From: Oenococcus kitaharae | GTDB taxonomy: Bacteria; Bacillota; Bacilli; Lactobacillales; Lactobacillaceae | Length of the DNA: 64,000 nt | Direction: 5' to 3' | Assembly: GCF_025758695.1 (NCBI RefSeq) | Contig: NZ_JANJQP010000001.1 | Coordinates: 434,001-498,000 of the forward strand | Shown: positions 8,856 through 42,101 of the stretch, one piece after another | How the letters are laid out: the number at the start of each line of letters is the position of its first letter | Position numbering within the stretch: the first letter of the stretch is position 1 | Position numbers and translations under genes: made by a program | The notes under the pieces: generated by a model | What the model was told of the DNA's origin: nothing | Database searches by the model: none | What the model saw: only the letters and a program-made list of their open reading frames with translations

Positions 8856-8871
8856 CATAATTAGCCATTTG

Positions 8872-9278: not shown

Positions 9279-9705
9279 TTACGAGTTTTCCTTTTCTATC
9301 TAGATAATTTTGCAGAATCAACTGAGCCGCCAGGCTATCGATGACTTTTTTGCGCTTCTCGCGAGACAAGTCAGCTTCCTCAATCAGCATTCGATTGGCT
9401 TGGACGCTGGTCAGACGCTCATCTTCATAATCAATCGGCAAATGAAAGCGGTCGATGACCATCTGGCCATAGCGACGAGATGCATCCACACGCGGCCCTT
9501 CGCTGTTGTTCATATTCTTGGGCAAACCAATGACGATGCCAGTCGCCTTCTTTTCGGCAATCAGTTGAGCTAAACGGTCCAGACCGAATTCGCCTTTATC
9601 CTCATTGATCCGAATGATTTCAACAGAACTGGCCGTCCATCCAAGCGGATCGGATTGTGCGACACCGACTGTCCGAGAGCCGACGTCGAGACCCAAAATT
9701 CTCAT
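9271..9705 (-). CDS. ruvX: Putative pre-16S rRNA nuclease / Holliday junction resolvase-like RuvX (YqgF)
   Basis: RNase H-fold protein of 144 residues acting in 16S rRNA maturation, and possibly on branched DNA. The first strand holds the catalytic Asp in [32 protein letters not shown] and [11 protein letters not shown] supply the remaining family motifs. It overlaps ireB by 4 bases (ATGA) and yrzB by 8, consistent with coupled translation. Confidence 0.95.
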
Positions 9706-9983
9706 TTGTCTTTATCCGTCGGCTTTTTAACATCTTCAGCCAGGTAATTTTTGACCAATTCTTCGACGATCTCATCGCGTTCGAAACGGCGAATCAGATT
9801 CCTGGCATCGTTAAGACGCGGGATATAAGCCGGATCGCCAGAAATTAAATAACCGACAATCTGATTGATCGGGTTATACCCTTTTTCCTCTAACGCCTCG
9901 TAAACCAACTTCAGCATCGAACGGACGTTTTCCGGTTTCTGTGAACCGAAATCAAATACTGTTGTGTCTTCAAATTCTGCCAT
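9702..9983 (-). CDS. ireB: IreB family regulatory phosphoprotein (UPF0297)
   Basis: Small protein of 93 residues ([13 protein letters not shown] start). In Enterococcus IreB is phosphorylated by the PASTA kinase IreK on N-terminal threonines and tunes cell-envelope stress and cephalosporin tolerance. The TT pair at residues 7-8 is the likely phosphorylation region here, by inference. The core [20 protein letters not shown] is diagnostic. It starts 18 bp after alaS and overlaps ruvX. Confidence 0.94.
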
Positions 9984-10001
9984 CTACTATATTCTACCCT
10001 A

Positions 10002-26479: not shown

Positions 26480-29269
26480 TCACCAGATTTTAATTTTCCA
26501 AAATTCCTTCATACCGGAAAGTACCAGTGTCGGAATAGCTGGTAAGAAAATAACTGCCAAGTAAATCGGCCAAGTCAAAGGGCGTGTTCCCATTAACGTA
26601 TTGAAGAAAGGCAGCATCGTCACGGTCAATGAGGCAATCGCTGCAAAGAGAACTGCCGCTAACAAATAAGGATTGCTGAAGGGATTTCGATGAAACAAAC
26701 TACGCGAGCTGCGCGCGTCAAACACATGCCATAGCTGACCGAAGACCAGAGTCAGAAAAGCAATTGTTTGCGCCTCTGCGATTTGATAACCGGCTGAGGC
26801 GGCCCAAAGAAAGGCTAAAAACACTTGCAAACCCATGAAGAACCCGCGAATCAAAACCCTCGTCCACATATGATCCGACAAAATCGATTTGGCTGTGTCA
26901 CGCGGCTTTTCTGCCATAATCTCATGTTCCGGTTCATCGTATCCCAACGAAAATGACGGCAGCGAATCGCTGATCATATTGACCCAGAGCACCATCAGAG
27001 TAGTCAGGGTTGGCGTTACTTCTGAAATATGCCCAATCGGCGCTGTTATCAGAAAAGTTGTGAAAAGCAGTGAAAGCACTTCAGCCACATTGGTTGTTAA
27101 TTCTTGCCGGATAAAATTTTGAATGTTAGCAAAGATAGTTCGACCAGCGGCGACTGATTTTTGGATCGTCGTAAATTTATCGTCCAGCAGAATTAAATCA
27201 GCCGAATCTTTTGTCACTTCGGTCCCGTTAATGCCCATTGCAATACCGATATTGGCAGCTCGCAAAGCAGCCGCATCGTTGACGCCATCTCCAGTCATGG
27301 CAACAATTTCGTGGTGCTGCTGCAGGGCTTTAACGATTCGCTGCTTATGGGCCGGCGCGACCCTGGCATAGACACGTATCGGTTTAACAAGATCAAAAAG
27401 CTGTTTGTCAGACATTCCTTCAATCTCGCTCCCGGTCACAACGCGAACATCTCGATCAGAAACGATTCCCAAGCGGTAGGCAATTTCCCTTGCCGTCGCT
27501 GCATGATCCCCTGTGATCATGACCACTTGAATTGATGCTTCGTGCAGTGTTTTAATGGATTGCCGAACCTCGGGACGCGGCGGATCAATAATGCCCGCCA
27601 GGCCAAGTACCTTAAAGTCGTTTTCCAGTTCTTCTTGACTGGCGTGCAGCGCCTCTTCTTCGGTCAGATCACGTTCAGCGACCGCAATTGTTCTTAAAGC
27701 ATCATGGGCGAAATCTAAAATCTGCTGGTCAAACATTGGCCGGGCAGAATCAACCGACTGAAATTGACCATGAATCTGAATACTTGCAGCCTTGTTTAAA
27801 ATCACATCCGGGGCACCTTTGGTCAACAGCTTATATGAAGATGGCCCGCACTTCAATACGGTACTCATCATCTTTCGCTGGCTTTCAAAAGGGAGAATCC
27901 GTAAAATATCGTAGTCGATCCCATCGGTCTGGTTCAATAAAGTTTCCCGAATCAAGCCGGCTTTTCTTGCTAATACCACTAGAGAAACATCCGTCGGATT
28001 GCCTAAGGGCACATAATTGCCGACTGAATTTTTTTGAATGGCAGCCTCGTTATTCAAAACAGCACTTAACAAGAACTTCTGATAATCATAATTTTCCCCC
28101 ATCTCTGACGATGGCAAGATTTCGCCGACTGGTTCATAGCCATTGCCGTCAACTTCATAATTGACGCCATTCGCATAAAAACGTGTGACAGTCATCTCGT
28201 TCTTAGTCAAAGTGCCGGTCTTGTCTGAAGCAATAAAAGTCGTTGCGCCAAGTGTCTCGACACTGTTCAAAGATTTGATCAAACCGTTATTGGCAGCGAG
28301 CTGCCGAGCGCCAACGGTCAGTACAATCGATAAGACAACCGGCAGCGCATCAGGAATCGCGCCGACGGCCAAAGCGATTGCACCGGAGACATTTTCAAAC
28401 AGATCTGCAATTGTCAATTGCCCTGTGGAGACAAATTCTTTGATAAGGTTATAGGCCAAAGCTAGAATAACCACAGCTGCTGCCAAGATCATCAGACGCC
28501 TGGTCAGCTGATTAATTGTGATTTCTATCGGTGTCTGTTTGACGGCCGTATTTTGGATCAGGCCGGCAATTTTCCCCAATTCAGTGTCCATACCCGTAGC
28601 TGTGACTACGCCGATACCACTGCCGTTAACGACCACTGAAGCCGAATAGCCCATGTTGCTGCGATCGCCTAATTCAGTATTGGCCGGTAAAAGTTTATTA
28701 TCTTTTAAAACTGCCTGCGATTCGCCGGTCAGATGGGACTCATCAACCTGTAATTCGCTAGTCGACAACCATCGCAGATCTGCCTCAACAAAATCACCCA
28801 TCCGGACTTCGACAATATCGCCGGTTACCAGCTGTTTTGCATCAATTTTCTGCCAATCGCCATCACGAAGCACTTTTATCTGCCGATGAGACATTTTTTG
28901 AAGCGCATTTAAGGATTTTTGTGCCGTATAGCTTTGCCAAGAAGTGAGGCCAGCATTAATAAAAATGACGATCAAAATAACTAGTGCTTCATAAATAGCC
29001 TCAAGGCCGTGTTTGGCATTTTCAGCGACAAAAAATTCAAAAAGAGAATTGGAAATGGTTAGCGCGATCGCAAACCACAAAATAATCATGATTGGTTCGC
29101 TTAAAGCATGTAAAAAAATTTTCCAAATTGGATCCGGCGCGTCGCTTTCGATACTATTAAAACCGTTCGCCAAGAGGCGATTCTCAGCTTCTTGACTGCT
29201 CAGCCCCTCGTGACGCGACGTCTTAAGGTCGTTAAGTAATTCTTTTCGGTGTGACGAAAATGCTTGCAT
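26480..29269 (-). CDS. Cation-translocating P-type ATPase (P2/Ca2+-like)
   Basis: ATP-driven cation pump of 929 residues with a P2-type layout: N-terminal cation-ATPase domain, TGES actuator motif (HLTGESQAVLKDN), phosphorylation motif SDKTGTLTKNEM, hinge MTGDGVNDAAALRAA, and a long C-terminal membrane domain. The M4 sequence is AIPDALPVVLSIVLTVG, related to the PEGLP motif of calcium pumps but with Asp for Glu and Ala for Gly. This leaves the ion (calcium, sodium or another) open. Single gene with its own promoter region at 29270-29320. Confidence 0.92.
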   Translation of the reverse strand: MQAFSSHRKELLNDLKTSRHEGLSSQEAENRLLANGFNSIESDAPDPIWKIFLHALSEPIMIILWFAIALTISNSLFEFFVAENAKHGLEAIYEALVILIVIFINAGLTSWQSYTAQKSLNALQKMSHRQIKVLRDGDWQKIDAKQLVTGDIVEVRMGDFVEADLRWLSTSELQVDESHLTGESQAVLKDNKLLPANTELGDRSNMGYSASVVVNGSGIGVVTATGMDTELGKIAGLIQNTAVKQTPIEITINQLTRRLMILAAAVVILALAYNLIKEFVSTGQLTIADLFENVSGAIALAVGAIPDALPVVLSIVLTVGARQLAANNGLIKSLNSVETLGATTFIASDKTGTLTKNEMTVTRFYANGVNYEVDGNGYEPVGEILPSSEMGENYDYQKFLLSAVLNNEAAIQKNSVGNYVPLGNPTDVSLVVLARKAGLIRETLLNQTDGIDYDILRILPFESQRKMMSTVLKCGPSSYKLLTKGAPDVILNKAASIQIHGQFQSVDSARPMFDQQILDFAHDALRTIAVAERDLTEEEALHASQEELENDFKVLGLAGIIDPPRPEVRQSIKTLHEASIQVVMITGDHAATAREIAYRLGIVSDRDVRVVTGSEIEGMSDKQLFDLVKPIRVYARVAPAHKQRIVKALQQHHEIVAMTGDGVNDAAALRAANIGIAMGINGTEVTKDSADLILLDDKFTTIQKSVAAGRTIFANIQNFIRQELTTNVAEVLSLLFTTFLITAPIGHISEVTPTLTTLMVLWVNMISDSLPSFSLGYDEPEHEIMAEKPRDTAKSILSDHMWTRVLIRGFFMGLQVFLAFLWAASAGYQIAEAQTIAFLTLVFGQLWHVFDARSSRSLFHRNPFSNPYLLAAVLFAAIASLTVTMLPFFNTLMGTRPLTWPIYLAVIFLPAIPTLVLSGMKEFWKIKIW

Positions 29270-29329
29270 AATCTTCTCCTGACTGTTGTATAGCGCGTTT
29301 ACATAATCTATTTTTATTATACATGAGAC

Positions 29330-29354
29330 AAAAAAAGACCGGTTTCTCGGTCTC
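29330..29354 (-). terminator. Terminator after the choloylglycine hydrolase gene
   Basis: GAGACCGAG pairs with CGGTCT around AAAC on the minus strand, followed by seven T. Confidence 0.75.
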
Positions 29355-29365
29355 GCAAATGATTA

Positions 29366-30331
29366 TCATGCAGTCGCTTTATCCAATTCTACGACTTGAT
29401 CGCTCGCCAAAAGATGGGCATCCAAGACATATTTTGCCGGCCCGAACTGCTCATAAAGCTGGAAATAGTAGGCTGAATCCGTCAAATCCATGACAGTCTT
29501 GTACTGCGTGTAATCCGACTCGCCATTAGCCTGAATTTTGACGCCCTTGGGAATATCAAAAGCATTCAAAAGATGGAAAACGGCCTTCGCGCCAGCTTCG
29601 CAGCCAGTTGTCTTTCCTATATAATTTCTCAAAAAGACGGCTCTGATAAAACGAGAAACAGAACTATAATCGCCAGGCAAGCCCATCGCACCGTATCCCG
29701 GGCCATCGGCAATCGCTTTAAAGCTGCCATACTGTCTGTCAACATGATCCTGCGGCTGCAAATGATTATAGCGGCGCAGGTTTTCCATATGCCAACCGTA
29801 AGCCGGCGAATTGGTCATGACACCGACCTGATTATCGTAATAATGCACACCAGTCGCTGTGATTTCCAGAACTTTTGAGACGCCGGATTTATCAGCCAGC
29901 ACCCAATGCAGCGGGACGACAATTTTCAAGAAACGATTTTCCTGATTGACGATCACGACTTTTTGAAAACGATCGATAAAGTCTGCCACAGAAGACGCCT
30001 GGCCGAGACCCCAAGCCACCAAATCAGCTGATTCAAGATTGGCCTTGTCAGGATCTGGCTGATCGGCATATTGGGCGTTTTCCGAAAAATACAAAGCGGC
30101 CATCGAAAAGCCTGCTTCATTGAGACCGTCGGCGAAAATATAGCCGCCGACATTGGCACCAGCACCCAAAAAAGCGAGACGGCTTGTGAATCCCGACTGT
30201 CCTGCCAACGTTGCAAAATGGTAATTGCGCGGGATGTAGATGGGTTTGGCACCCAGCTGAAATGAAAAATCCATCGTCCGAGCCAGCATGCGGACATTGT
30301 CCTCTGTCTGATACGTAATTGATGTGCACAT
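29366..30331 (-). CDS. Choloylglycine hydrolase family (linear amide C-N hydrolase)
   Basis: Ntn hydrolase of 321 residues. It starts MCTSITYQTEDN, so removal of Met exposes the nucleophile Cys2. Arg18 and Asp21 (ARTMDF) and DGLNEAGFS fit the active site. The family includes bile-salt hydrolases and penicillin V acylases. Which one this is cannot be decided without alignment of the substrate loops, and N-acyl homoserine lactones are a further possible substrate. No secretion signal, so cytosolic. Upstream is a short divergent small membrane protein gene. Confidence 0.88.
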   Translation of the reverse strand: MCTSITYQTEDNVRMLARTMDFSFQLGAKPIYIPRNYHFATLAGQSGFTSRLAFLGAGANVGGYIFADGLNEAGFSMAALYFSENAQYADQPDPDKANLESADLVAWGLGQASSVADFIDRFQKVVIVNQENRFLKIVVPLHWVLADKSGVSKVLEITATGVHYYDNQVGVMTNSPAYGWHMENLRRYNHLQPQDHVDRQYGSFKAIADGPGYGAMGLPGDYSSVSRFIRAVFLRNYIGKTTGCEAGAKAVFHLLNAFDIPKGVKIQANGESDYTQYKTVMDLTDSAYYFQLYEQFGPAKYVLDAHLLASDQVVELDKATA

Positions 30332-30436
30332 AAAAACTCCTTTCAGATTTGATTGAGATCATTATAGGAGTATTCAGTAATAAGTTGTCAACCTTAGCCA
30401 AAATAAGGAATAATTAAGGAAGCAAGGAGCGAAAAC

Positions 30437-30586
30437 ATGACCAAATATCTGATTTTTGCAGCTGAATTAATCGCAATTTCTCTGTGGCTCTTCTTCGGAG
30501 CCAAATCCTTTTGGGCCGGCCTGATCGGCGTAGTTGTCATCATTGCCATCTCGCAGTTCCTGCATTGGTGGCTGAAAGCTCGATAA
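30437..30586 (+). CDS. Small single-protein membrane ORF, 49 residues
   Basis: A strong ribosome site AAGGAGCGAAAAC precedes an ATG opening MTKYLIFAAELIAISLW and ending HWWLKAR. Two hydrophobic segments (about 4-20 and 24-42) with a short turn suggest a tiny two-helix or hairpin membrane protein. I recognise no family. It ends 4 bp before the convergent TPM gene stop and is divergent from the Ntn hydrolase. The clean start signal and hydrophobicity make it likely real. Confidence 0.6.
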   Translation: MTKYLIFAAELIAISLWLFFGAKSFWAGLIGVVVIIAISQFLHWWLKAR

Positions 30587-30589
30587 AAA

Positions 30590-31741
30590 TTACTGCTGGC
30601 TATCCGATTTTTTCAATACATCCAACGCTGCCAAATCCGCAGCAAAGGCCACAGGATCAAAAGTTGGCAAAGCCAGATTCGCCCAAGTCATCTCGGAACC
30701 CTGATAGTTTTTGCTACCGCCATAACCCGCATAGAGCTTAACCGCGCGAGAAAAATCCTCGAAAACCTGTATCAGCCCTAAGGAATCAGGATGCCCATAA
30801 CGCAGCATGTTCACTGCGATTTTAAGGCGTGTCGATAAATCGGCATCGACAGTCTGCAGAGCCTGAGTGAGCAGGACTAAATTATCTTTCAGCTCAGGTG
30901 TCATCTCCCCTAGAGTGGGCTGAATGACAGGCTGCAGGGAAACAAGTGCCAGACGCATCTGCTTATTTCGGCGCGCTCTCGGTAACAAGAAGACGAATAA
31001 CGCAATAACCAGAACCACTCCAACAGTCAAAAAAATGAGCGCAAATTGGTTGAATTTCTGCAAATAAGTCTGGGCATAGGCATGCTGACTGGCTTTCGTT
31101 TTGGCTTTGACGCTCGGATCCATGTAAAGATTGATCAGACCCGCAGCGCGGCGTACCATCTTATCAATGCCCTCGCTATAATCTCCTTTTTGCATCATGG
31201 CCTTGACTTGATCGTTCACAATCCAGGAAATAGCGTTATCCCCTATCTGGCTGCGTAAACCACTGCCCGTCACCACCGATACTTTGCGGTCTTTGATTGC
31301 CACGTAAATCAGTAAAGCCGTATCGTGAGGCCGTTTATCAAGCTTGTGTTTTTTAAAGGCCTGCTCGGCTTGTTGAGCAATATTCGCGCCATGAGTTGTC
31401 GGCACAACCACCACAAAAATACCCGGGCGATGCTGGTCGCGAGCCATATAGTAGTGATTAATGAAGTTAATATCGTCGACAAAAAACCCGGATATGTATT
31501 GCGACTCATCAAAGACATATCGTGTGTGCGTATCCTTGTCCCAATAATCGGCCGGGTAAGCCCTCGCAAACGCTTTAACCCTTGCTGAAGGCGGCTTGTA
31601 ACCAGCTAATTTTTCAGTACTCGGCCAGCTGGCAGTAGTCGACGGCCATGTCAGAATGAAAAAGTGGATAATCGTCCACCCCAAAAAAATCAGTAAAACA
31701 CCAGCAATAAGAATTCTTAGCTTCTTGAATTTGATAGGCAT
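30590..31741 (-). CDS. TPM-domain membrane protein (YgcG-like)
   Basis: TM helix at about 9-30, then a TPM domain (about 75-215) with the features GIFVVVVPTTHGANI, ALLIYVAIKDRKVSVVTGSG and ISWIVNDQVKAMM. A second hydrophobic helix lies at about 235-255 and a 120-residue cytoplasmic tail follows. Proteins with this layout are membrane-bound with an extracytoplasmic TPM domain, seen in lactobacilli as poorly characterised envelope proteins; some TPM domains act as phosphatases or photosystem repair factors. Function here is unknown. Confidence 0.8.
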   Translation of the reverse strand: MPIKFKKLRILIAGVLLIFLGWTIIHFFILTWPSTTASWPSTEKLAGYKPPSARVKAFARAYPADYWDKDTHTRYVFDESQYISGFFVDDINFINHYYMARDQHRPGIFVVVVPTTHGANIAQQAEQAFKKHKLDKRPHDTALLIYVAIKDRKVSVVTGSGLRSQIGDNAISWIVNDQVKAMMQKGDYSEGIDKMVRRAAGLINLYMDPSVKAKTKASQHAYAQTYLQKFNQFALIFLTVGVVLVIALFVFLLPRARRNKQMRLALVSLQPVIQPTLGEMTPELKDNLVLLTQALQTVDADLSTRLKIAVNMLRYGHPDSLGLIQVFEDFSRAVKLYAGYGGSKNYQGSEMTWANLALPTFDPVAFAADLAALDVLKKSDSQQ

Positions 31742-31859
31742 GCCCAGCTTTCTTTATTTAGTCGGCGGTGTGGATGCGGCCAAGTTATACAAACAGCATA
31801 AGCCTAAATGTTGTGGCACGTGGTGTCAAAGAAGCATCCGAGTATTCAAGTCTAAAAAA

Positions 31860-32531
31860 TCAGTAATCGCTTTTTAGCAAATTGCCCAAATCACTATCGA
31901 GACTATTATATTTGTCGGTCCAACCATTGTAGGTGCCAACAGGGTTCGAACAATTATCGTAAAACTTATTTAACAAATTCAGCATTTTTTTGCTGCTTGA
32001 ATAATTACTTGCAATCCGCGTGATATTCGGATATTTGTCATAAATCAGCCTAATTTTAGAAACATCATCTTCTATAGCAGAAATCTTAGCCTGCGCTTTA
32101 GACAAGTTACTAGATTGATCACTCACAGCCGCGCTAACAACTTTGGTGATGCCATCTGAACTGTAGTCCGCATTATCATCGTTAAAATAGCTTTGCCACT
32201 TACCATAAATATAAGATCCAGATTTTTCAATTTCCGAACCAGCAAGATATCCGTCTGCCAGCACATCTGCCTTATAGGTACTTGATTTTTTAATAGCAAC
32301 TTTCCGCTCCTGCTTTTCCCGGGCAATTCGCGCTTGCCTCAGAGTGGCTTGATATTGATTATTAGAAGCCCATCCGCCAATCACTGAGAAAATAAGTAAA
32401 ATCGGCGATAGAAAAAGAACGATTTTTGAAACCGTTCTAAATTTCTTTAAGATTAATAAAATTCCCGAAACAACAAATAAGACCAAACTAATTGACGCAA
32501 TTATTACGCACAACAAAAACAAGCTCTTCAT
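31860..32531 (-). CDS. Unknown membrane protein with extracytoplasmic domain, 223 residues
   Basis: Two N-terminal hydrophobic helices (about 3-27 and 35-52) precede a basic linker (RIAREKQERKVAIKKSS) and a soluble Ser/Lys/Asp-rich domain. No conserved motif or family was recognised. AT content is higher than in the housekeeping neighbours, and it begins the accessory region that extends to 36 kb. Preceded by AAAGGGGAGATTATG. Conservation is unknown to me. Confidence 0.65.
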   Translation of the reverse strand: MKSLFLLCVIIASISLVLFVVSGILLILKKFRTVSKIVLFLSPILLIFSVIGGWASNNQYQATLRQARIAREKQERKVAIKKSSTYKADVLADGYLAGSEIEKSGSYIYGKWQSYFNDDNADYSSDGITKVVSAAVSDQSSNLSKAQAKISAIEDDVSKIRLIYDKYPNITRIASNYSSSKKMLNLLNKFYDNCSNPVGTYNGWTDKYNSLDSDLGNLLKSDY

Positions 32532-33000
32532 AATCTCCCCTTTAAATCCTTTTACTCATTTAAATTTTAGTTTAAAAACGAGATTCTCCGACAGGAAATT
32601 TGAATATTTACTCAATTTCATTTGCAAACCGTAATATAGAACATTATTTGTCACTTCTAATTGATCTTGCGCGTCCGAAACTTTGCCTTCGCATGGCACA
32701 GACCACAGATCGGACTCTACCTCATTGATCTGACACACATCTGAAGCGCAAGTACACACCTAAAAATGACCAAGAACAACTCTACGATCCTATGTCGTTC
32801 CAATCGTACAAACTAGGGAGGTGCTGCATACGAAGTGGGCTCTTAAAGCTAAAGACCGGCAAATGGTTATTCTCTATACCAAAGAGGACTAAAGATATAA
32901 GATGATCGGTTTAGCACAGAACGATTCAGGACCTATTGCCATCGCAATCAAAAAGATTGGCTGAGTGTTGTACAGCCTTTAAAGACCCGCACAACCTATT
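32532..33000. other. Gene-free stretch with one copy of a 28-bp repeat
   Basis: No convincing gene is seen. It contains repeat copy A (32720-32747) and a relic-like frame at about 32828-32963 interrupted by stops (reads AKDRQMVILYTKED, then MIGLAQNDSGPIAIAIKKIG after a stop). This may be the decayed remains of a gene I do not recognise. Confidence 0.5.
32720..32747. repeat. Direct repeat copy A flanking the LRR gene
   Basis: The 28 bases beginning CCTCATTGATCTGACACA recur at 33920-33947 with 26 of 28 identical. Confidence 0.85.
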
Positions 33001-33897
33001 TTATCGTCTCACAATCGTGACATTCCTAGAAAATGTTTGTGGCCTGACTAATAATTGACGCGGCAGAGAAACCCAAGCGAAGTTTTGATCATATGCAAAA
33101 GCTGAATTATCTAGAACAGTGACTGAGTCAGGAATGTAAACGCGCCTTAGAGCGGTACAAGAGTAAAAGACAAACTGTCCAATCGTAATAATCCGGTTGC
33201 CCAGATCCACATCTGTTAGTGAAGTATCACCCATAAAAGTATTTCCCAGCTTGACTGCAAGATCGTCTAGCCGGGCACTTTTAAGTGACGGATCCCAGGC
33301 AAAAGCGTTTGACCCCAAATATTTTACCGAGTGCGGTACGACAATTGATTCTAATTGCTGGTCATGACTAAAAGCCCAGTTGCCAATGGAAACGACACGA
33401 TCAGGAATAACCACATTAGAGAAGTCGCTTTTTGATAGTGCCCAGGCATTAATGGATTTCAAGGTCTTAGGAAGAACAAGCGTAGTTGCGCTGTGTCGCG
33501 GCAATGCAGATTTTTTGCCATCACCAAGAGAAGTCACAGTGTAGGTTACGCCGTGATAAGACACGCGACTTGGTAAAGTAATAACCGCCGTGTTCTTTTC
33601 TGTACTGTTCTTTTGGTATCCAACCAGTATGGCGGTCTTAGATTCATTTTTTAAAGTAAAGGCCCAAAGGCCAGTTGACGCCTGGTCATGATAAACCTGG
33701 CCGGACTTTATTTTTAAATGCCTATTAAATTTTATTTGAGATAAACGTTCATACACGGGCCTGAGCACAGCAAAAGAAAAACCCGCTACCAATAAAACAA
33801 ACGCAAGCGTCTCTATCATAACCTTTAATTTTGAATGACGATCTGGCACTACACCTATTTTACCTACCTTACAGTCCCCAGGCCTACCTATCATCAA
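33001..33897 (-). CDS. BspA-type leucine-rich-repeat protein
   Basis: A hydrophobic helix at about residues 27-47 (MIETLAFVLLVAGFSFAVL) is followed by several 22-23-residue LRR_5 repeats (examples SINAWALSKS, SIGNWAFSHDQQLES, YLGSNAFAWDPSLKS, TIGQFVFYSCTALRR, VLDNSAFAYDQNF). Such proteins are surface ligand-binding or adhesive proteins in many Firmicutes. The short protein lacks an LPXTG or other wall signal, so it is held by its helix. The true start could be the Met at 33819. Flanked by direct repeats, suggestive of a mobile or duplicated cassette. Confidence 0.75.
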   Translation of the reverse strand: MMIGRPGDCKVGKIGVVPDRHSKLKVMIETLAFVLLVAGFSFAVLRPVYERLSQIKFNRHLKIKSGQVYHDQASTGLWAFTLKNESKTAILVGYQKNSTEKNTAVITLPSRVSYHGVTYTVTSLGDGKKSALPRHSATTLVLPKTLKSINAWALSKSDFSNVVIPDRVVSIGNWAFSHDQQLESIVVPHSVKYLGSNAFAWDPSLKSARLDDLAVKLGNTFMGDTSLTDVDLGNRIITIGQFVFYSCTALRRVYIPDSVTVLDNSAFAYDQNFAWVSLPRQLLVRPQTFSRNVTIVRR

Positions 33898-34191
33898 ACA
33901 AATAAGGGCGGGAATTCTGCCTCATTAATCTGACACATATCTGAAGCCAAAGATGCCAGGAATTATTTTGTCGTATAGATAGTGATAATTTCACTTTCTG
34001 AAATTGCTGCATGATAAAACCAGAGATTGTTTAAGACAAGAGAGCTATTTTTTTGTCTACCATCTTTCCAATATTGCATTCGAAATGAAAAATCAGTAGT
34101 AATTAGTTCGTAATCAACCTTTATATTCTATTCATTTTCACCATAAAGTTCGTTATTTTTTAAAGATAACTATATTCTTATATTTTTTAAA
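33898..34191. other. AT-rich gene-free stretch before the hsdS remnant
   Basis: No gene is seen. It holds repeat copy B (33920-33947) and is much richer in A and T than its surroundings, consistent with decayed or foreign DNA. Confidence 0.6.
33920..33947. repeat. Direct repeat copy B flanking the LRR gene
   Basis: The 28 bases beginning CCTCATTAATCTGACACA are 1200 bp from copy A in the same orientation, two mismatches. Confidence 0.85.
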
Positions 34192-34194
34192 AAA

Positions 34195-34734
34195 CGCCTT
34201 ACTTGGGAAAAGCGTAAGTTGGGTGATCTGGGAAAAACATTCACAGGTCTCTCTGGAAAAACTAAGGAAGATTTTGGTTACGGAGATGCTAGATTTGTGA
34301 CGTATATGAATGTGTATTTAAATCCCATCGCATCCGAAAAAGGTTTGGAACGAGTGGAGTTAGACTCAAAACAACATTTGGTTCAATATGGCGATGTTTT
34401 CTTTACAACCTCCTCAGAAACACCAGAGGAGGTCGGCATGTCGAGCGTTTGGACCTTTAAATTGCCTAATATATACTTAAACAGTTTCACCTTTGGTTAT
34501 AGACCTACCTACCATTTTGATCTCAACTATCTAGCCTTCATGCTAAGAACAGAGATAGTAAGAAAAGATATTAAGTTACTTGCCCAAGGAGTTTCTCGAT
34601 TCAATATTTCTAAAACTAAGATGATGGATATCCAGGTACCTATCCCTGAAAAAGACGAACAAATCAAGATTGGTACGTTTTTAAAAACACTTGATGACCT
34701 GATAACTGTCAACCAGCGTCATGCACCCAATTAA
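34195..34734 (+). pseudogene. Truncated type I restriction specificity subunit (hsdS')
   Basis: The frame shows one target-recognition domain entering through the HsdS-like sequence TWEKRKLGDLGKTFTGLSGK and leaving into a piece of the conserved spacer (EKDEQIKIGTFLKTLDDLIT). The remainder, including the first recognition domain and the rest of the central repeat, is missing. No ATG start is present; the nearest in-frame start is TTG at 34219. It faces the hsdR-integrase hybrid, the layout of the silent hsdS' copy in invertible type I loci. Probably a relic. Confidence 0.75.
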
Positions 34735-34737
34735 GCA

Positions 34738-34761
34738 GAAACGCATGTTGCCATGCGTTTC
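34738..34761. terminator. Hairpin between hsdS' and the hsdR-int hybrid
   Basis: GAAACGCATG and CATGCGTTTC form a perfect 10-bp stem around TTGC between the two convergent frames. Confidence 0.8.
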
Positions 34762-34770
34762 TTACATTTT

Positions 34771-35862
34771 TTACATTAAAGTTGTCAGGTATCTCATGAT
34801 TTTGTCAGTATCTTGGTTCTCTAATTCCTGAATCACGTGTAAATAAGTTCTTTGAGTCGTATTCATATTCGAATGTCCCAGTCTCCTAGCTACAGAACCA
34901 ATTGAGACACCAGCATATAGCAGCAATGAAGCGTGAGTGTGTCTAAGACCATGAACGCTGATGACTGGGATCCCCGCTCGAGAACAATATCGTTCCAAAC
35001 GATCATTAGCCGTGGCGTTATAAATCTTTTGTCCGGGCAAAACGAAAATTTGATAGGGACGCAACAAAATCAGGCTTTTTCTTTCTTCATCCATGACTGT
35101 GTATTCGCTGACCAACTTGTGTGCCATGGGGATATTCAAAACTTGTTGAGTGAATTTCAGGCCATCTTCGACAGGTTTGTTGTCTCGTGTACGCCAATGA
35201 AAAATGAAAGAATCATTGAAATGTCCTGGCTCACAGTTAGCAAAATAGGCAGAGCTATCAGGACTCATAATGACAAACATTTGCAGTAAAGAATAGATAC
35301 CTGTGTACTTGCTTTCCGCTGCATATTTTTTAATTTGAGTGAACGCTTGACCAAGTTCGACAGTTGATTTCTTGAACTCAAGCTGGATTAAAGGCAGGCC
35401 GTTAATTAATAAAGTGACATCGAAACGACGATCCTGATCATCGCCATTTATATTTGTGCCCTTTGGACGTACAGCCTGACGCACAATTTCATAACTAGAC
35501 TTGCCGCCGGCAACATCAGCTTTCCAAAAAAGCTCAAGCGTTACTTTATCAAGCTGGGCATCATCACGCTCTATCACGATTTTACCGATACCATTTTCAG
35601 CAGCAAGCAATTGGGCGGCTTCATATGGTGTCTGAACTTCAATTGCTCGTTGGACACGACCGAATTCCTGGTCGGTTAATGGCTGACCCTGCAAAACAGC
35701 GTAATTGTTGTTATTTATTTTTTCGCGAAGATTTGCCCAGAGTTGTTCAGGGGTTGCTTCATACAGATCTTTTCGCTCGACCCACTGATTATGCCCAACT
35801 GTCAGCTGATTCACAACCTCTTTTTCAAAGTCCAATTCAGCTTTCGTTTTATAATTTGCCAT
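34771..35862 (-). CDS. Hybrid: HsdR N-terminal nuclease domain fused to tyrosine recombinase C-terminal domain
   Basis: Residues 1-272 match the N-terminus of type I restriction subunit HsdR, with the nuclease residues Asp148, Glu162 and Lys164 in RFDVTLLINGLPLIQLEFKK and the typical LLRPYQI. At about residue 272 the protein switches to the C-terminal part of a tyrosine recombinase: HGLRH (His304-x-x-Arg307), His330 in RRLGH and nucleophile Tyr340. The HsdR helicase motor and the recombinase N-terminal half with the first catalytic Arg are absent. A large deletion between hsdR and int best explains it. Whether the hybrid is stable or active is unknown. Confidence 0.85.
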   Translation of the reverse strand: MANYKTKAELDFEKEVVNQLTVGHNQWVERKDLYEATPEQLWANLREKINNNNYAVLQGQPLTDQEFGRVQRAIEVQTPYEAAQLLAAENGIGKIVIERDDAQLDKVTLELFWKADVAGGKSSYEIVRQAVRPKGTNINGDDQDRRFDVTLLINGLPLIQLEFKKSTVELGQAFTQIKKYAAESKYTGIYSLLQMFVIMSPDSSAYFANCEPGHFNDSFIFHWRTRDNKPVEDGLKFTQQVLNIPMAHKLVSEYTVMDEERKSLILLRPYQIFVLPGQKIYNATANDRLERYCSRAGIPVISVHGLRHTHASLLLYAGVSIGSVARRLGHSNMNTTQRTYLHVIQELENQDTDKIMRYLTTLM

Positions 35863-36023
35863 ACTCTCCCCAAAATAAAATACTATTTTGATTATAGTTT
35901 ATTGGAGCGTTGATACTTACGCTATTAAACAGCAATTATTTGATATTTATTTATTAATACCAAAGCAAATTCTTGGGTAAATCGAGCTTGCTTTCCCCTC
36001 CCCACCGTGATATCGTATCAAGA

Positions 36024-36081
36024 GGTTAAAATAAAAGTAAACGATACCTTTATTTTAACCAATTAAAGGTATTATTTACTT
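36024..36081 (+). promoter_or_regulatory. Interlocked inverted repeats upstream of the binding-protein gene
   Basis: GGTTAAAATAAA (36024-36035) is the exact reverse complement of TTTATTTTAACC (36049-36060). AAGTAAACGATACCTT (36035-36050) is nearly complementary to AAGGTATTATTTACTT (36066-36081). The two pairings interleave, so they resemble either two operators or alternative RNA folds ahead of the gene at 36112. Confidence 0.55.
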
Positions 36082-36111
36082 AAATTATCAAGATTGAGAG
36101 AGTGAGAAGTT

Positions 36112-37029
36112 ATGAGAAAAATTATCACCTTTATCGGCAGTCTGCTGCTGGCAGCTGGTCTCATTTCCAGCCTGCCTGCATCCCCTGCTTCAGCTGCACA
36201 AAGCCGTAATCCCAAAACAATACGTGTCGGATTCGTCCCTTCTGAGAATGCCTCGACAATGCAGGCGCGCGCCATCCCATTGGGAAAAATGTTATCCAAG
36301 CGCCTAGGCAAAAAAGTCCAGGTCACCGTTTCCACGGATTATAATTCGATCGTCGAAGCCCTGGGCTCCGGTAAAATCGATGTTGGTTTCCTACCGCCCG
36401 CAAGCTACGTCCAGGCTCACAAGCAGTATGGGTCCAAAGTTCTGCTCCAAGTCGTTCGAAACGGTATCAATCACGACGGCTCCAACCAAAAGAAAATGGT
36501 CAGCTGGTACCGGTCACTGATTCTTGTCCGCAAAGATTCCAATATCAAGAGTTTAAAAGACCTTGAAGGTAAAAATATCGCGGTCCAGGATTCGACCAGT
36601 GCTTCGGGTTACATCTTCCCCATTTACTACCTGAATGCTAGAGGCATCGATGTTGTAAAAAAAGCCCATCTTGTGACTGTCAAAGGCCATGATCAAGGGG
36701 TGCTGGCATTGGCAAACAAGCAGGCAGAGGCCGCATTCGTTTATCAGGATGCCCGCAATCTCGTCAAGAGCGATGTGCCTAACATTTTCAAAGACACGCG
36801 GATTTTGGCACAAACCATGAAGATTCCTAATGATACGATCACGGTTCGAAAGACGCTGTCCGCTTCACTGGACAAGAAAATTTCTAAAGCCTTCATGCAA
36901 ATCGTGAAGACAAAAAAAGGCAAAAAGCTCGTCGAAAACCTTTATGGTATCGCCGGCTTTGAGCATTCGAAAAATAGCAATTTCAATGTTGTCAGAAAAG
37001 CCTATAATTCCATCACACAAGGCAACTAA
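36112..37029 (+). CDS. Phosphate/phosphonate-type ABC substrate-binding protein (PhnD family), orphan
   Basis: A signal peptide (MRKIITFIGSLLLAAGLISS...) ends at an AxA site (ASA before AQ), with no lipobox Cys. The mature protein is a PhnD/PtxB-type periplasmic-binding domain: RVGFVPSENASTMQAR, GKIDVGFLPPASYV, KDLEGKNIAVQDSTSASGY and YQDARNLV. At 305 residues it is full length. No permease or ATPase gene lies nearby, so it must use remote subunits or act otherwise. A soluble, non-lipidated form is unusual for a Gram-positive binding protein. Confidence 0.85.
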   Translation: MRKIITFIGSLLLAAGLISSLPASPASAAQSRNPKTIRVGFVPSENASTMQARAIPLGKMLSKRLGKKVQVTVSTDYNSIVEALGSGKIDVGFLPPASYVQAHKQYGSKVLLQVVRNGINHDGSNQKKMVSWYRSLILVRKDSNIKSLKDLEGKNIAVQDSTSASGYIFPIYYLNARGIDVVKKAHLVTVKGHDQGVLALANKQAEAAFVYQDARNLVKSDVPNIFKDTRILAQTMKIPNDTITVRKTLSASLDKKISKAFMQIVKTKKGKKLVENLYGIAGFEHSKNSNFNVVRKAYNSITQGN

Positions 37030-37039
37030 TGTATAGTAG

Positions 37040-37066
37040 AAAACAAGCCGATGGGCTTGTTTTTTT
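37040..37066 (+). terminator. Terminator after the binding-protein gene
   Basis: AAACAAGCC pairs with GGGCTTGTTT around GAT, followed by a run of T. Immediately downstream is a tRNA T-arm-like sequence. Confidence 0.85.
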
Positions 37067-37095
37067 GTGGGTTCGATTCCCGATCGAGATATAGC
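37067..37095 (+). repeat. T-arm-like motif A downstream of a terminator
   Basis: GTGGGTTCGATTCCCGATCG resembles the T-stem/loop and 3' end of a tRNA, but no tRNA body precedes it. A related copy is at 47097-47123 in the same terminator context. Confidence 0.5.
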
Positions 37096-37271
37096 CCCTT
37101 TGATCAAGAACTAGTCTTATTTGTGCACCAGGATTAGGAGATGAATGACAGCAGTTATGGACAAGACAAACACACTTACATTGATTGGCTGCAAGATGGA
37201 GCGATTTCCCCTTGAATCCATTTAATTTTGACTTAGAGAAAGAATTATAGAATGAGAGTGGAGGCAAAACA

Positions 37272-38123
37272 ATGATAGAAACTCGTAAAATCCCTAATTT
37301 AGTACTCAATGACGGTCACCTATTGCCATCAATTGGATTTGGCACCTATGAAATCCGGGGCAACCGAGGGGTTGACCAAATTTTAACAGCTATTCAAGAT
37401 GGCTATCGCCTAATTGATACCTCAACTAATTACGATAGCGAAGGTGCGGTTGGCGAAGCAATTCGTCGTTCCGGTATCCCGCGTTCAAAATTTTTTGTCA
37501 CTTCCAAATTGCCCGGCAAATATCACCATTACGAGGATGCTTTAAAGATGATTCAGGAATCAATTTTCCGTATGGGAATTGATTATTTGGATTTATATCT
37601 GATTCATTGGCCAAACCCCAAACGTGGCCTTTACCTTGAAGCGTGGCAAGCTTTGATTGAAGCACGCAAACAAGGATTGGTTCGTTCGATTGGTGTTTCC
37701 AACTTTACAGCTGAGCACCTGGATAAGATTATTTCAGAGACAGCAGTAGTGCCAGCCGTTAATCAGATTGAAATCCATCCTTACTGGCCGCAACCAAAGA
37801 TGCTGGCTGTTAACCAAGACCGTCATATCTTAACCGAAGCTTGGAGTCCCTTGGGCCGAGGCAGTAAAGAGTTATCCGAACCGTTGATTTTAGATTTAGC
37901 TAAGAAATACCACAAGAATGCCGGACAAATCATTCTGCGCTGGCATCATCAAAGAGACATCCTGCCGATTCCTAAATCCAGCAGTGTTTTCCACCAGCGG
38001 GATAACTTGGACATTTTCGATTTTGCTTTAAGTGATGATGAAGTTGCTCAGATAAATCAACTAAATCGTCCTGATGGCCGAGTTGATAATCAGGATCCAA
38101 ACGAGTATGAAGAGTTCGATTAG
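37272..38123 (+). CDS. Aldo/keto reductase
   Basis: NADPH-dependent reductase of 283 residues in the 2,5-diketogluconate-reductase-like subgroup. Catalytic Asp and Tyr are in LIDTSTNYDSEGAVG, Lys in VTSKLPGKYHHY and His in YLIHWPNPKRG. The C-terminal segment is ILPIPKSSSVFH. It is only distantly like the other aldo/keto reductase in the window, so not a tandem duplicate. Monocistronic with its own terminator. Confidence 0.92.
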   Translation: MIETRKIPNLVLNDGHLLPSIGFGTYEIRGNRGVDQILTAIQDGYRLIDTSTNYDSEGAVGEAIRRSGIPRSKFFVTSKLPGKYHHYEDALKMIQESIFRMGIDYLDLYLIHWPNPKRGLYLEAWQALIEARKQGLVRSIGVSNFTAEHLDKIISETAVVPAVNQIEIHPYWPQPKMLAVNQDRHILTEAWSPLGRGSKELSEPLILDLAKKYHKNAGQIILRWHHQRDILPIPKSSSVFHQRDNLDIFDFALSDDEVAQINQLNRPDGRVDNQDPNEYEEFD

Positions 38124-38128
38124 TGTTT

Positions 38129-38157
38129 AATAAAGGCCGCGGTTAAGCGGCTTTTTT
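38129..38157 (+). terminator. Terminator after the aldo/keto reductase
   Basis: GGCCGC and GCGGCTTTTTT pair around GGTTAA with a T run, 6 bp after the stop. Confidence 0.8.
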
Positions 38158-38379
38158 AATATGTTTTTGTTTTCGACTGGACCGACACTTTATGGACGAT
38201 ATCTTTTGTTGTGCTAGCCAAATCGTTGGTTCCTAGTTTTGGCACCGCTTGGTTTTCTAACACACCAACATTTCCGTCGAATTATCTGTTAATAGGCCAA
38301 TTTTCTTAGCAGACCTTCTTAGTGATCAAACACGGAAATTACTTTAGTATAAAATTAAGTTAATTTCTAAGGGGCACTT

Positions 38380-39018
38380 GTGAAAATACAGACAGCAGTG
38401 AGAAAAAGGAATCGTTTTCTATTTTCAGCAGTTTTGGGTCTGGTGCTGTTTGGCGTATCCTTGTTCTTCTTTAATTGGCAGATAGCTCTATTGGCCGGTT
38501 GGGATACAGCATCGCTATCCTTAATTGTGTTAATCTGGTGGGCTTTTTTGCCGAGCAGCGGCCAACATACCCGCCAAATCGCTTTAGGTGTCGGTGTCCG
38601 CTATCCAGTTTTAGATGTTTTGATTCTCTTAGCTAGTCTCATTAGTCTTGTGATTGGCGTCCTTCTTTTTACAAGCAGTAAAGGGAACCCAATCAAAATT
38701 ATTTTCTGTCTCTTTAGTATCTTCTGTTCTTGGAATCTAATTCACGTGCTTTATGCCGTCCATTATTCAGAAATGTACTATCGAAGGAATGCACATTTTA
38801 GCGATGGCGGAATTGATTTTAATAGCAAGGAAGCGCCAGATATCTGGGATTTTGCCTACCTATCTTACACAATTGGTATGACTTATCAGGTCTCTGACAC
38901 AACTTTTTTGACCACAGATTTTCGAAAGTTGGCTCTGAGTCATGCTTTAATTTCCTTTTTATTTAGTACGGTTTTAATTGCCACGATGATCAATTTTATT
39001 GCTAGTTTAATGAGCTGA
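38380..39018 (+). CDS. DUF1345 membrane protein
   Basis: Polytopic protein of 212 residues with about five hydrophobic helices (10-30, 35-55, 70-95, 105-130 and 185-210). The DUF1345 segment HYSEMYYRRNAHFSDGGI and FAYLSYTIGMTYQVSDT is well conserved. Function unknown. The start is GTG at 38380 after AAGGGGC, giving the N-terminus MKIQTAVRKRNRFLFSAV. It stands alone. Confidence 0.8.
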   Translation: MKIQTAVRKRNRFLFSAVLGLVLFGVSLFFFNWQIALLAGWDTASLSLIVLIWWAFLPSSGQHTRQIALGVGVRYPVLDVLILLASLISLVIGVLLFTSSKGNPIKIIFCLFSIFCSWNLIHVLYAVHYSEMYYRRNAHFSDGGIDFNSKEAPDIWDFAYLSYTIGMTYQVSDTTFLTTDFRKLALSHALISFLFSTVLIATMINFIASLMS

Positions 39019-39328
39019 TTTTGCTATCGATTCGCCATTGCTGACTTTTTTGTGATTAATCGACGACCATAACCAATAATCTGTGTTCCTTGATGGCACA
39101 TACGGTCTTATCTGCTTAGCAATATACTGCATCGCTAATAAACAGTCTGAATTTAGCCGGATCAAGTCTCAGAGAAATAGGTGCCGTTAGACAATAACGG
39201 CTTAAATTATCTCCAAAATTAGCTCAACATTATCCTTTACTTAAAGCTGTTATAATTGAGTTGTAGCTGTTTATAAGCGCTTTCATTTCCACTTTCCATG
39301 AACAATGAGTTTCAGAAAAGGAGGTCAA
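39019..39328. other. Intergenic region before the envelope-stress cluster
   Basis: It has no gene. It contains a TATAAT element (39251-39256), the cre-like site at 39272-39285, and the AAGGAGG ribosome site of amaP. Confidence 0.6.
39272..39285 (+). promoter_or_regulatory. cre-like CcpA site before amaP
   Basis: TATAAGCGCTTTCA matches the cre consensus at 13 of 14 positions and lies 44-57 bp before the amaP start, downstream of a TATAAT element. Confidence 0.55.
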
Positions 39329-39889
39329 ATGTTAAAAACTATCAAATATTTATTGATGATGCTGGGTGCCTTGTTGCTGATCCCGCTTTGGGAGATCGTG
39401 GTTAGATTTCAGGCAATTGGATCTTTTCCTTTCAGATTGACCCCACTGACCCAGTACCCGGTCATCGGCGAATATATGCCTGTTATGCTTTTCTGGTTAG
39501 CCTGCGGTTTAATTGTGATTATTCTGTTGTGTTTGATTGTGATTACTTTTTGGCCTTCTCAAAAACATCAATTGGTTTTTAAGGAAGATCGAGGAACCTT
39601 GCAAATCCAAGAAAAAGCCATTGAGAACTTTGCGAAGCGAATCGCCCAAGAAAGTGGCTTTCTTGAAGAACCAAAAGTAAAAGTACGAGTAACCGCCAGA
39701 AGGATTAAGGTTCACTTAGAAGGATCTTTTAATCCTCAGGATGTTCTCCCCGATGTCAACCAGCGCTTTCAGGAGAATTTGAAAAATAAACTGTCAACGT
39801 TGTTGAATGCGCCAAAAGAAAAACTACGAATAACTCTGCAATTCAAAAATGTTTATCTAGCCAAGCACGAACACCATCGTGTGGAATAG
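39329..39889 (+). CDS. amaP: Alkaline shock response membrane anchor protein AmaP
   Basis: Membrane anchor of the Asp23 envelope-stress complex. A helix at about 5-20 and a second at about 48-72 flank a short periplasmic stretch; the cytoplasmic C-terminus is basic and contains the AmaP-like domain (VKVRVTARRIKVHLEG). The start at 39329 is chosen for its perfect AAGGAGGTCAA ribosome site rather than the frame start 24 bp earlier. First of four genes (amaP, DUF2273, asp23, glsB) arranged as in other Lactobacillales. Confidence 0.85.
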   Translation: MLKTIKYLLMMLGALLLIPLWEIVVRFQAIGSFPFRLTPLTQYPVIGEYMPVMLFWLACGLIVIILLCLIVITFWPSQKHQLVFKEDRGTLQIQEKAIENFAKRIAQESGFLEEPKVKVRVTARRIKVHLEGSFNPQDVLPDVNQRFQENLKNKLSTLLNAPKEKLRITLQFKNVYLAKHEHHRVE

Positions 39890-39900
39890 GAGAAAAGAAG

Positions 39901-40074
39901 ATGGAAATAATTTTTAGCAAATATAAGTGGCCGATCATTATTGGCTTCGTTGGCTTTGTGATTGCGATCTTATTTTTAACCTTAGGTTTTTGGCAGACTA
40001 TCTTGATTCTTCTACTGACGACGCTTGGTGGTATGCTTGGTTTTTATCTCCACAACATTGGCATTTTGAAGTAG
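39901..40074 (+). CDS. DUF2273 small membrane protein
   Basis: 57-residue protein with two hydrophobic helices (about 12-30 and 33-52, ending HNIGILK). Its position between AmaP and Asp23 is the conserved spot for DUF2273 proteins. A GGAGAAAAGAAG ribosome site precedes the ATG. Presumably helps organise the Asp23 complex at the membrane; not proven. Confidence 0.8.
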   Translation: MEIIFSKYKWPIIIGFVGFVIAILFLTLGFWQTILILLLTTLGGMLGFYLHNIGILK

Positions 40075-40131
40075 ATTACGATCTTTAATTAAAGCAATTT
40101 AAAATAAAAGCTACAAAGGATGGCACTTCTT

Positions 40132-40698
40132 ATGGATACTATTAATAAACACAAAGAAACTGGACCAGAGCAGACTGATAAAACAAACGCACCGCAGATT
40201 CGGGGGACTTTATCCTATGAGGATAAAGTGATTCAAAAGATAGTTGGGCTATCTATTGGACAAATCGACGGCTTGCTCACGGTTGATGGTGGCTTTTTCT
40301 CCAACATCGCCGAGAAGCTAGTCAATACAAACAATAAAACAACTGGTGTTGATGTTGAAGTTGGCAAAAAACAAGTCGCTGTTGATTTATCAATTGTAGC
40401 CGAATACGGCAAAAATATCGCTGAAATTTATCAAGAAATTAAGAAAGTGATTTCTAAACAAGTCAACCAAATGACCAATCTTGAAGTTGTAGAGGTCAAT
40501 GTGAATGTCACTGATATTAAGACTCGAGAGCAATATGAAAAAGACTCAGTCAGTTTACAAGATAAAGCAAGCGAAGTTGCCGAAAATACCGGCAAGGCAG
40601 TCTCCGAACAAAGCGATAAAGTCTCAGATAAAGTTCAAGAAACAGTTAGAAAGACTCAAAATCGAGCTAAAGATGCTTCAAAACCAAGAGTTGAATAG
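40132..40698 (+). CDS. Asp23/Gls24 family envelope stress response protein
   Basis: Protein of 188 residues with the Asp23 domain (about 25-135; SYEDKVIQKIVGLSIGQIDG, DGGFFSN, and VEVGKKQVAVDLSIVAEYG) followed by a Lys/Glu/Ser-rich helical tail (about 135-188). The start at 40132 uses the AAAGGATGG ribosome site; the ATG 12 bases upstream overlaps that site. In Staphylococcus Asp23 lies under the membrane bound to AmaP. It heads toward glsB, 44 bp downstream. Confidence 0.9.
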   Translation: MDTINKHKETGPEQTDKTNAPQIRGTLSYEDKVIQKIVGLSIGQIDGLLTVDGGFFSNIAEKLVNTNNKTTGVDVEVGKKQVAVDLSIVAEYGKNIAEIYQEIKKVISKQVNQMTNLEVVEVNVNVTDIKTREQYEKDSVSLQDKASEVAENTGKAVSEQSDKVSDKVQETVRKTQNRAKDASKPRVE

Positions 40699-40742
40699 TG
40701 TTGATAGGGTTTAAATAATCGTCAAAATTAAAGGAGAAAAAG

Positions 40743-40997
40743 ATGCATATAATTTGGGTGTTAATCATTGGCGGCATCATCGGTGCCATCGCTGGCGCGA
40801 TCACGAACAAAGGCGGCTCAATGGGCTGGATTGCTAATATCGCAGCCGGTTTAGTCGGATCCTGGCTTGGTGAATCTATCCTCGGAGACTGGGGCTGGCA
40901 TCTGGCCGGCATTGCGATCTTTCAATCCATCATCGGCGCCGTTGTTGTTGTGGCCATTGTTTCCTGGCTGATGGTCAGGATGAATACAAATAAATAG
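40743..40997 (+). CDS. GlsB/YeaQ/YmgE family stress response membrane protein
   Basis: 84-residue transglycosylase-associated-type membrane protein with three hydrophobic helices and Gly-rich packing motifs (GGIIGAIAGAI, GSWLGESILGDWGW). Members are stress-induced in Gram-positives. The ribosome site AAAGGAGAAAAAG is excellent. Last envelope-stress gene before the glycosyltransferase, with 58 bp to the next start. Confidence 0.88.
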   Translation: MHIIWVLIIGGIIGAIAGAITNKGGSMGWIANIAAGLVGSWLGESILGDWGWHLAGIAIFQSIIGAVVVVAIVSWLMVRMNTNK

Positions 40998-41055
40998 GTA
41001 TTAAAAAACTAAAGCACGATAAGTGCTTTTTTCTGACGATAGACTAGGAGAAACG

Positions 41056-41913
41056 ATGGAACTGACTTCTACTGTTATTATGGGGACTTATAACGGGTCA
41101 GCTTTTATCTATGACCAATTAGCCTCCATCCTTGAACAAACAAGTCCTGTGACTAAAGTAATTATCAGAGACGATGGTTCCACTGATGGGACTTCCAAGA
41201 TGATTGAGCAATTTATTGATAATCACGCTTTGCACCAAACATGGGATTTTCAGATCAACGATGATCAAAAGGGTTGGCGGAAAAACTTCATGGACATGCT
41301 TACCAAGATCGAAACCGACCTCGTTTTCTTTTCTGACCAAGATGATATCTGGTATTCCGATAAGGTCAGCACATTCCTGAAAGCTTTTTCTCATGAACAG
41401 CAGGCTGAATTAATTGTTTCGGACTATGATTTTCAGCCAAAAGATCAAACACTGTTGACCACGTACACCCTTCAGGAGAAACAAGCTGGTTATGAGGGCT
41501 TGTTTCAGCTAATTCCCAACGTTTATAATCTGGCTACTTATCGGCCTGGTTGTTCGATGGCACTCAAGGAATCAATGATTCCCTCGGTTATCGAAACTTT
41601 CAACAAAATTGCTATAGGGCCGAATGGATTAGCCCAATCGCATGATGAAGCGAGTTGGCTAACGGCCATACTCCGGGGTTCTTTCTATCACTTGGCTAAA
41701 CCATTATTCAGCCGTCGATCACATGCAGATAGCACTTGGCAATCCGAGAAGAAAGCCCATCAGGATTATTTTGAAACAGCGGCTCATCAAGAAAACTTCG
41801 AAAATTTTGTGGCCAGCGTTGGCAGCGAACTAAATAGCGACCATTGGCGGATCAAGCCACTCCAGTCGAATCTAAAAAAAGAAATAGAGCTTTATTTTCA
41901 AGGCCTAAATTAA
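41056..41913 (+). CDS. Glycosyltransferase family 2, rhamnosyltransferase-like
   Basis: GT-A fold enzyme of 285 residues. STVIMGTYNGSAFIYDQL and RDDGSTDGTSKMIEQF give the nucleotide-sugar domain, and FFSDQDDIWYSDKV holds the DxD-type metal motif. No transmembrane segment is seen, so it is cytoplasmic or peripheral. The start at 41056 follows TAGGAGAAACG. Probably decorates envelope polysaccharide, inferred from family and envelope-stress context. Donor and acceptor are unknown. Confidence 0.88.
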   Translation: MELTSTVIMGTYNGSAFIYDQLASILEQTSPVTKVIIRDDGSTDGTSKMIEQFIDNHALHQTWDFQINDDQKGWRKNFMDMLTKIETDLVFFSDQDDIWYSDKVSTFLKAFSHEQQAELIVSDYDFQPKDQTLLTTYTLQEKQAGYEGLFQLIPNVYNLATYRPGCSMALKESMIPSVIETFNKIAIGPNGLAQSHDEASWLTAILRGSFYHLAKPLFSRRSHADSTWQSEKKAHQDYFETAAHQENFENFVASVGSELNSDHWRIKPLQSNLKKEIELYFQGLN

Positions 41914-42101
41914 CTATAAATCAGCTGGCACTTCGTTAAACTGCCAGTTTGCGGCCATATCGTCTCCAATGGATACCTGCCAAGCGATGACCCACACACT
42001 GCTGATTTTGCTCTCTTCCAAAAAGTTAAAATATATTAAACGTGTGCTAAGACGAAGAGAGCTGCCATTCGATTCTCAAAGAAAGCCAAAAAATCAACTA
42101 A

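Follow-up and report, generated by a model that had tools for sequence, protein, structure and literature searches.

The locus lies in a 64,000-nucleotide stretch of Oenococcus kitaharae DNA, referred to here as the window, and consists of two converging genes: an hsdS-like stretch on the plus strand and, facing it on the minus strand, one open frame that joins the N-terminal part of the type I restriction subunit HsdR to the C-terminal part of a tyrosine recombinase (Int). The features of the region are given below in window coordinates; G003 is a genome of the same genus carrying an intact relative of the locus.

34202..34734, plus strand: predicted silent hsdS target-recognition domain (TRD) cassette, inverted relative to hsdR/int (Pfam Methylase_S, 2.3e-10)
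34203..34220, plus strand: 18-nt repeat at the start of the predicted silent cassette
34699..34719, plus strand: repeat at the end of the predicted silent cassette, from the comparison with G003
34737..34762, no strand assigned: terminator-like hairpin between the converging genes, with a counterpart in G003
34771..35862, minus strand: in-frame hybrid ORF of 363 aa, HsdR N-terminal nuclease domain (1-272) followed by a tyrosine-recombinase C-terminus (273-363)
35046..35862, minus strand: HsdR-derived part, codons 1-272, 84% aa and 74% nt identity to the intact HsdR of G003
34771..35049, minus strand: recombinase-derived part, codons 273-363, placed by its identity to the intact Int of G003
35046..35050, minus strand: putative deletion joint, 4-5 bp microhomology (ATTT or AATTT) read against hsdR and int of G003
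32716..32747, minus strand: relict type II-A CRISPR direct repeat, partial copy
about 33912..33947, minus strand: relict type II-A CRISPR direct repeat, diverged copy
33001..33897, minus strand: gene for a BspA-type leucine-rich-repeat (LRR) protein between the two relict repeats (Pfam LRR_5, 2.5e-24)

The hybrid frame starts with ATG and contains no internal stop. Pfam places HSDR_N at residues 34-209 (E 1.4e-18) and Phage_integrase at residues 256-343 (E 8.2e-14), both above cut-off, in agreement with the original prediction, which had joined HsdR residues 1-272 to a recombinase C-terminus within the correct span of 34195-35862 and had named seven active-site residues, all of which are present. 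In the HsdR part, the nuclease site D-(x)n-E-x-K is kept as Asp148, Glu162 and Lys164. These residues align with positions 151, 165 and 167 of EcoR124I HsdR (2w00, aligned with hybrid residues 144-273, E 4.3e-19), which we take to be the catalytic residues. Pfam detects no helicase domain in the hybrid: only codons 1-272 of HsdR are left, a nuclease domain and no translocase. In the recombinase part, the catalytic motif of tyrosine recombinases comprises six residues, R-K-H-R-H-Y, and the hybrid keeps only His304, Arg307, His330 and Tyr340. The parent Int ORF has 314 aa and its codons 1-223 are absent, leaving a recombinase part devoid of the N-terminal core-binding domain and of the first half of the catalytic domain.

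The hsdS-like stretch begins near 34202, ends at 34734 and has the same position and orientation as the cassette in G003, with similar end repeats and a different TRD. By this comparison it is an ordinary, presumably silent TRD cassette and not a damaged gene; the facing hsdS that had been predicted is therefore present, whereas its supposed truncation is not borne out. The hairpin between the converging genes was likewise correctly placed, with 11 pairs instead of the 10 proposed. Its folding z-scores are -4.96 and -5.36 on the two strands, that of the counterpart in G003 is -3.81, and it looks like a terminator common to both genes. The 18-nt repeat TTGGGAAAAGCGTAAGTT occurs, by exact matches, once in the genome of the window and twice in G003, as an inverted pair. 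The inverted repeat pair flanking exchangeable TRDs that marks an invertible hsdS locus is thus missing from the genome of the window at this level of matching, and the silent cassette is left with no partner repeat for inversion.

The remaining type I components were sought in the whole assembly (completeness 98.5%, 7 contigs). HSDR_N matches at one place, this locus, and Methylase_S at one place, the cassette, which holds a single TRD and not the two of a complete HsdS. No N6_Mtase match was obtained with Pfam in the genome (13 of 14 control genomes were positive), and the HsdM of G003 used as a query found no match either. These counts leave the assembly without a working type I system.

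A complete locus in the order anticipated by the original prediction, hsdR-hsdM-hsdS-int followed by a TRD cassette on the opposite strand, exists in G003 (stretch L051). Its genes, in L051 coordinates, are as follows.

3582-6824: hsdR ORF, Pfam HSDR_N, SWI2_SNF2 and EcoR124_C
6841-8436: hsdM, Pfam N6_Mtase and HsdM_N
8442-9680: hsdS, Pfam Methylase_S in two stretches
9796-10740: int, Pfam Phage_integrase and a SAM-like domain

The G003 HsdR has 1063 codons counted from ATG and carries the ATPase and EcoR124_C domains. Window 35043-35853 matches G003 hsdR at 74% nt, with about 84% aa identity over residues 3-276 (84.8% in the invariant-column comparison described below); window 34699-35049 matches the end of G003 int and the following hairpin at 94% nt, and codons 273-363 are 98.9% identical to G003 Int at the aa level. 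Window position 35049 corresponds to L051 4443 in hsdR and to L051 10462 in int, so that the window lacks 6,019 bp relative to G003, the gap opening within hsdR and closing within int, as expected for the deletion that had been proposed; at the joint itself the two alignments overlap. Outside the locus, window 28001-42000 and L051 have no neighbours in common. As a separate observation, the L051 10462-10812 match to window 34699-35049 stands at 94% nt whereas hsdR stands at only 74% between the two species, which suggests an exchange of the recombinase part independent of hsdR.

The joint falls at hybrid residues 272/273 (window 35046-35049), close to the 35044-35049 at which the original prediction had advised looking for microhomology. 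The codons read CAG ATT TAC in G003 hsdR, CCG ATT TTC in G003 int and CAA ATT TTC in the hybrid; the stretch common to both is ATTT and would lengthen to AATTT had the lost int codon ended in A. This reading uses a relative with only 74% nt identity in hsdR and not the ancestor of this strain. By a hand calculation with equal base use, a match of at least 4 bp is expected at about 1.6% of random joints, and the microhomology is therefore suggestive and not proof. In the wider family, seven genome stretches (L077-L083) carry a homologous int near hsdR, hsdM and/or hsdS in varying gene orders, and hsdS matches lie on both strands in three of them (L077, L078 and L083).

With the whole hybrid as the query, neither 60 genomes nor 397 family genomes (185 matched at 1e-30), the own genome being included in both, gave a second protein of this kind: among the matches listed, ordered by score, only the own one covers residues 1-363. 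The two sets overlap, the collections hold one genome per species, and records near the window's genome may be absent from several of them. All 29 genome-contig loci matched the HsdR part only, with no second hybrid, and six candidate stretches from viral contigs held no relatives. Among 797 phage records matching the hybrid, one covers at least 80% of the query; this phage, OR846608 (97% of the query), encodes an ordinary HsdR of 1049 aa and the alignment enters its helicase part with poor identity. Among 1,695 matching plasmid records, 96 cover at least 80% of the query and the four inspected look like full HsdR genes: three are from Enterococcus (about 40% identity; one annotated as HsdR, two without a listed gene), with the alignment pattern of OR846608, and one is an annotated Arsenophonus HsdR. 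The junction peptide was covered to at least 80% in none of 93 phage records and in one of 158 plasmid records, Mesomycoplasma H52, annotated as a site-specific integrase. The joint was slightly crossed by recombinase matches starting at residues 222-237 (G012, G074, G113 and G162) and by HsdR matches reaching residues 279-292; three of the four former, once fetched, proved to be ordinary recombinases. Six short HsdR frames (G199, G205, two in G402, G282 and G023) end prematurely, at a contig boundary, through a frameshift or within the gene, and a recombinase match was found in none of them; the check covered these six, and two frames of G317 (189 and 191 aa) and a partial match in G240 stood outside it. 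Since the same hybrid was not recognised elsewhere in these searches, the conservation across many distant genomes that would have argued against a recent scar was not encountered.

The recombinase half shows 14.0 synonymous and 1.0 non-synonymous differences from G003 over 91 codons (dN/dS 0.027). By hand calculation, neutral drift across the whole of this divergence would give about 33 non-synonymous changes; with one observed, drift after the collapse can account for no more than about 14% of the divergence. After removal of short matches, stop-bearing matches and duplicates, invariant columns were found broken in 0 of 28 cases in the HsdR half (40 distinct relatives) and in 0 of 48 in the recombinase half (9 relatives); this is a weak test, as 35 of the 40 and 4 of the 9 relatives also break none when each is left out in turn. 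Relative to G003, the hybrid is nearer to outgroups by a mean of 1.3 points in the HsdR half (39 outgroups) and of 0.3 points in the recombinase half (8 outgroups). Judged from these comparisons, the scar would be young or else the frame would be constrained, and the data fit both.

The site itself belongs to a defence island. In G005, whose array agrees with the published one of O. kitaharae DSM 17330 in its repeat and its 57 spacers of 30 bp, flanks matching window 35979-37080 (94%) and 29487-32638 (88%) enclose Cas9, Cas1, Csn2 and the array. In the genome of the window, Cas9 gave no match and the two relict direct repeats stand about 1.2 kb apart, with no matches expected from shuffled sequences. 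The BspA-type gene between them has no match in the six other genomes of the genus that were searched. The original prediction had missed this broader context of a CRISPR-Cas island that was replaced and later decayed.

Three further observations concern this site and its counterpart. A 223-aa gene at window 31860-32531 (minus strand), whose counterpart adjoins the array in G005, has a sub-cut-off Pfam match to the Cpf1 REC2 domain (E 0.00097), probably a chance coiled-coil match. The window's site lacks a gene that adjoins cas9 in G005 (L076 3921-5621, plus strand); its product, of 566 aa, is a helicase protein of the Schlafen group 3 type and has a weak GIY-YIG match. Spacer 21 of the G005 array translates to IHGLRHTHAS, a conserved tyrosine-recombinase motif; it has no DNA-level match at E 0.05 to the window, its int part included, or to the fetched loci, and the link was set aside; a phage integrase as its target would be a guess.

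Combined, these results lead us to regard the hybrid, with a probability of about 0.9, as the scar that a deletion left in an invertible type I restriction-modification locus; most probably it has no function in its own right. An invertible hsdR-hsdM-hsdS-int locus with an inverted silent TRD cassette, probably acquired horizontally, would have occupied a chromosomal defence island, at the site that holds CRISPR-Cas II-A in the O. kitaharae type strain. Some 6.0 kb would then have been deleted between short ATTT matches at hsdR codon 272 and int codon 223. HsdR would thereby have lost its motor and its C-terminus, HsdM and HsdS would have gone, and the recombinase would have been shortened by about two thirds; the reading frame would have been preserved across the joint by chance. 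The data accommodate one event and two events equally. The product most likely neither restricts nor recombines DNA, because the translocase is missing, methyltransferase and specificity partners are absent and the recombinase is incomplete.

The open frame and the unbroken invariant columns in both halves count against a scar to the extent that selection on the hybrid would also give them. The hybrid could be an expressed and selected protein, an HsdR nuclease domain with a recombinase DNA-binding tail working as a stand-alone nuclease or regulator; the retained nuclease triad, the low dN/dS against intact Int and the 34 bp directly upstream of the start, 85% identical to the intact G003 hsdR, agree with such a protein. 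However, a young scar would show the same signs of constraint, the region has about as many promoter-like sites as shuffled sequence (9 against a mean of 6.5, sd 2.3), the recombinase part is deprived of its core-binding domain and of half of its catalytic domain, and a second example was not recognised in the genomes, plasmids and phages searched, so that we consider an expressed chimera very unlikely. That the fusion was retained as a useful DNA-binding regulator or stand-alone nuclease in a strain devoid of CRISPR-Cas and type I restriction is less likely still. Between the scar and the unusual DNA-acting chimera offered by the original prediction, the evidence supports the scar, and nothing specifically favours a function for the hybrid.

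An assembler could also have joined two distant genes, the assembly being built from short reads (Illumina MiSeq, SKESA, according to a passage of PMC10112052) and the joint sitting on a short common sequence. Yet at the reported 66-fold coverage a k-mer assembler would not be misled by so short a match, of 4-5 bp, and neither hsdM nor the remainder of hsdS turns up elsewhere in the 7 contigs, which have a single HSDR_N place; an artefact is thus extremely improbable. The deletion could instead have been made by the recombinase of the locus itself and not by microhomology or slippage, as the lost locus bore both a recombinase and inverted repeats. The joint, however, lies in the coding cores of hsdR and int and not at the TRD repeats (34203-34220 or 34699-34719), which makes this origin equally improbable.

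The hybrid and the missing hsdM are already in print, and the reading as a scar of the locus is largely known. The 2022 article on O. kitaharae CRBO2176, the kefir strain whose genome is analysed here (PMC9867325), describes in its passages on the locus a two-part HsdR/integrase protein, MCV3295975.1, which is the same protein as the hybrid; its first 271 aa share 85% identity with O. sicerae HsdR (QAS70346) and its last 92 aa share 99% with an integrase (QAS70349). As these identities fit G003 (84.8% and 98.9%) and the accession spacing fits four consecutive genes, G003 is probably Oenococcus sicerae UCMA15228. The same passages report no hsdM, a facing hsdS and a CRISPR-Cas system lost with one repeat left. 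They interpret the arrangement differently, seeing ORFs that were inserted and an incomplete type I system possibly associated with a prophage, and call the genes head-to-head, whereas here they converge. A third gene is described there as Ig-like and may be the BspA-type LRR gene of the window. A deletion across an invertible hsdR-M-S-int locus, a silent TRD cassette, a joint and a second repeat are not named in that section of the article. What is added here, as a refinement of that published account, is the likely deletion mechanism of about 6.0 kb with its joint, the predicted silent TRD cassette, the genome-wide loss of partners and the second CRISPR relic. The case illustrates how an invertible type I locus may die, a single short-match deletion abolishing restriction, methylation and switching at once. 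It also points to turnover of a defence site in Oenococcus, from CRISPR-Cas II-A in the type strain to a type I locus, since collapsed, in the kefir strain.

The invertible type I locus of G003 is among the closest known systems, and its homology extends over HsdR 1-272, the C-terminus of Int, the hairpin and the repeats of the cassette; it differs in being complete and in holding another TRD in its silent cassette. PsrA is reportedly a phase-variable type I system with a locus-encoded recombinase and with inverted-repeat-bearing hsdS variants adjoining it. Passages of PMC7394358 describe hsdS genes with inverted repeats beside recombinase genes as a known arrangement, and the likeness extends to SpnD39III, a phase-variable type I system with a locus-encoded recombinase in which inverted-repeat-bearing hsdS variants adjoin the recombinase/integrase gene. 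In contrast to SpnD39III and PsrA, the Oenococcus kitaharae locus has lost its recombinase, its expressed hsdS and its hsdM, and because these are gone no switching is expected; the locus would thus represent the relic of a lost phage-defence system and not a new kind of system.
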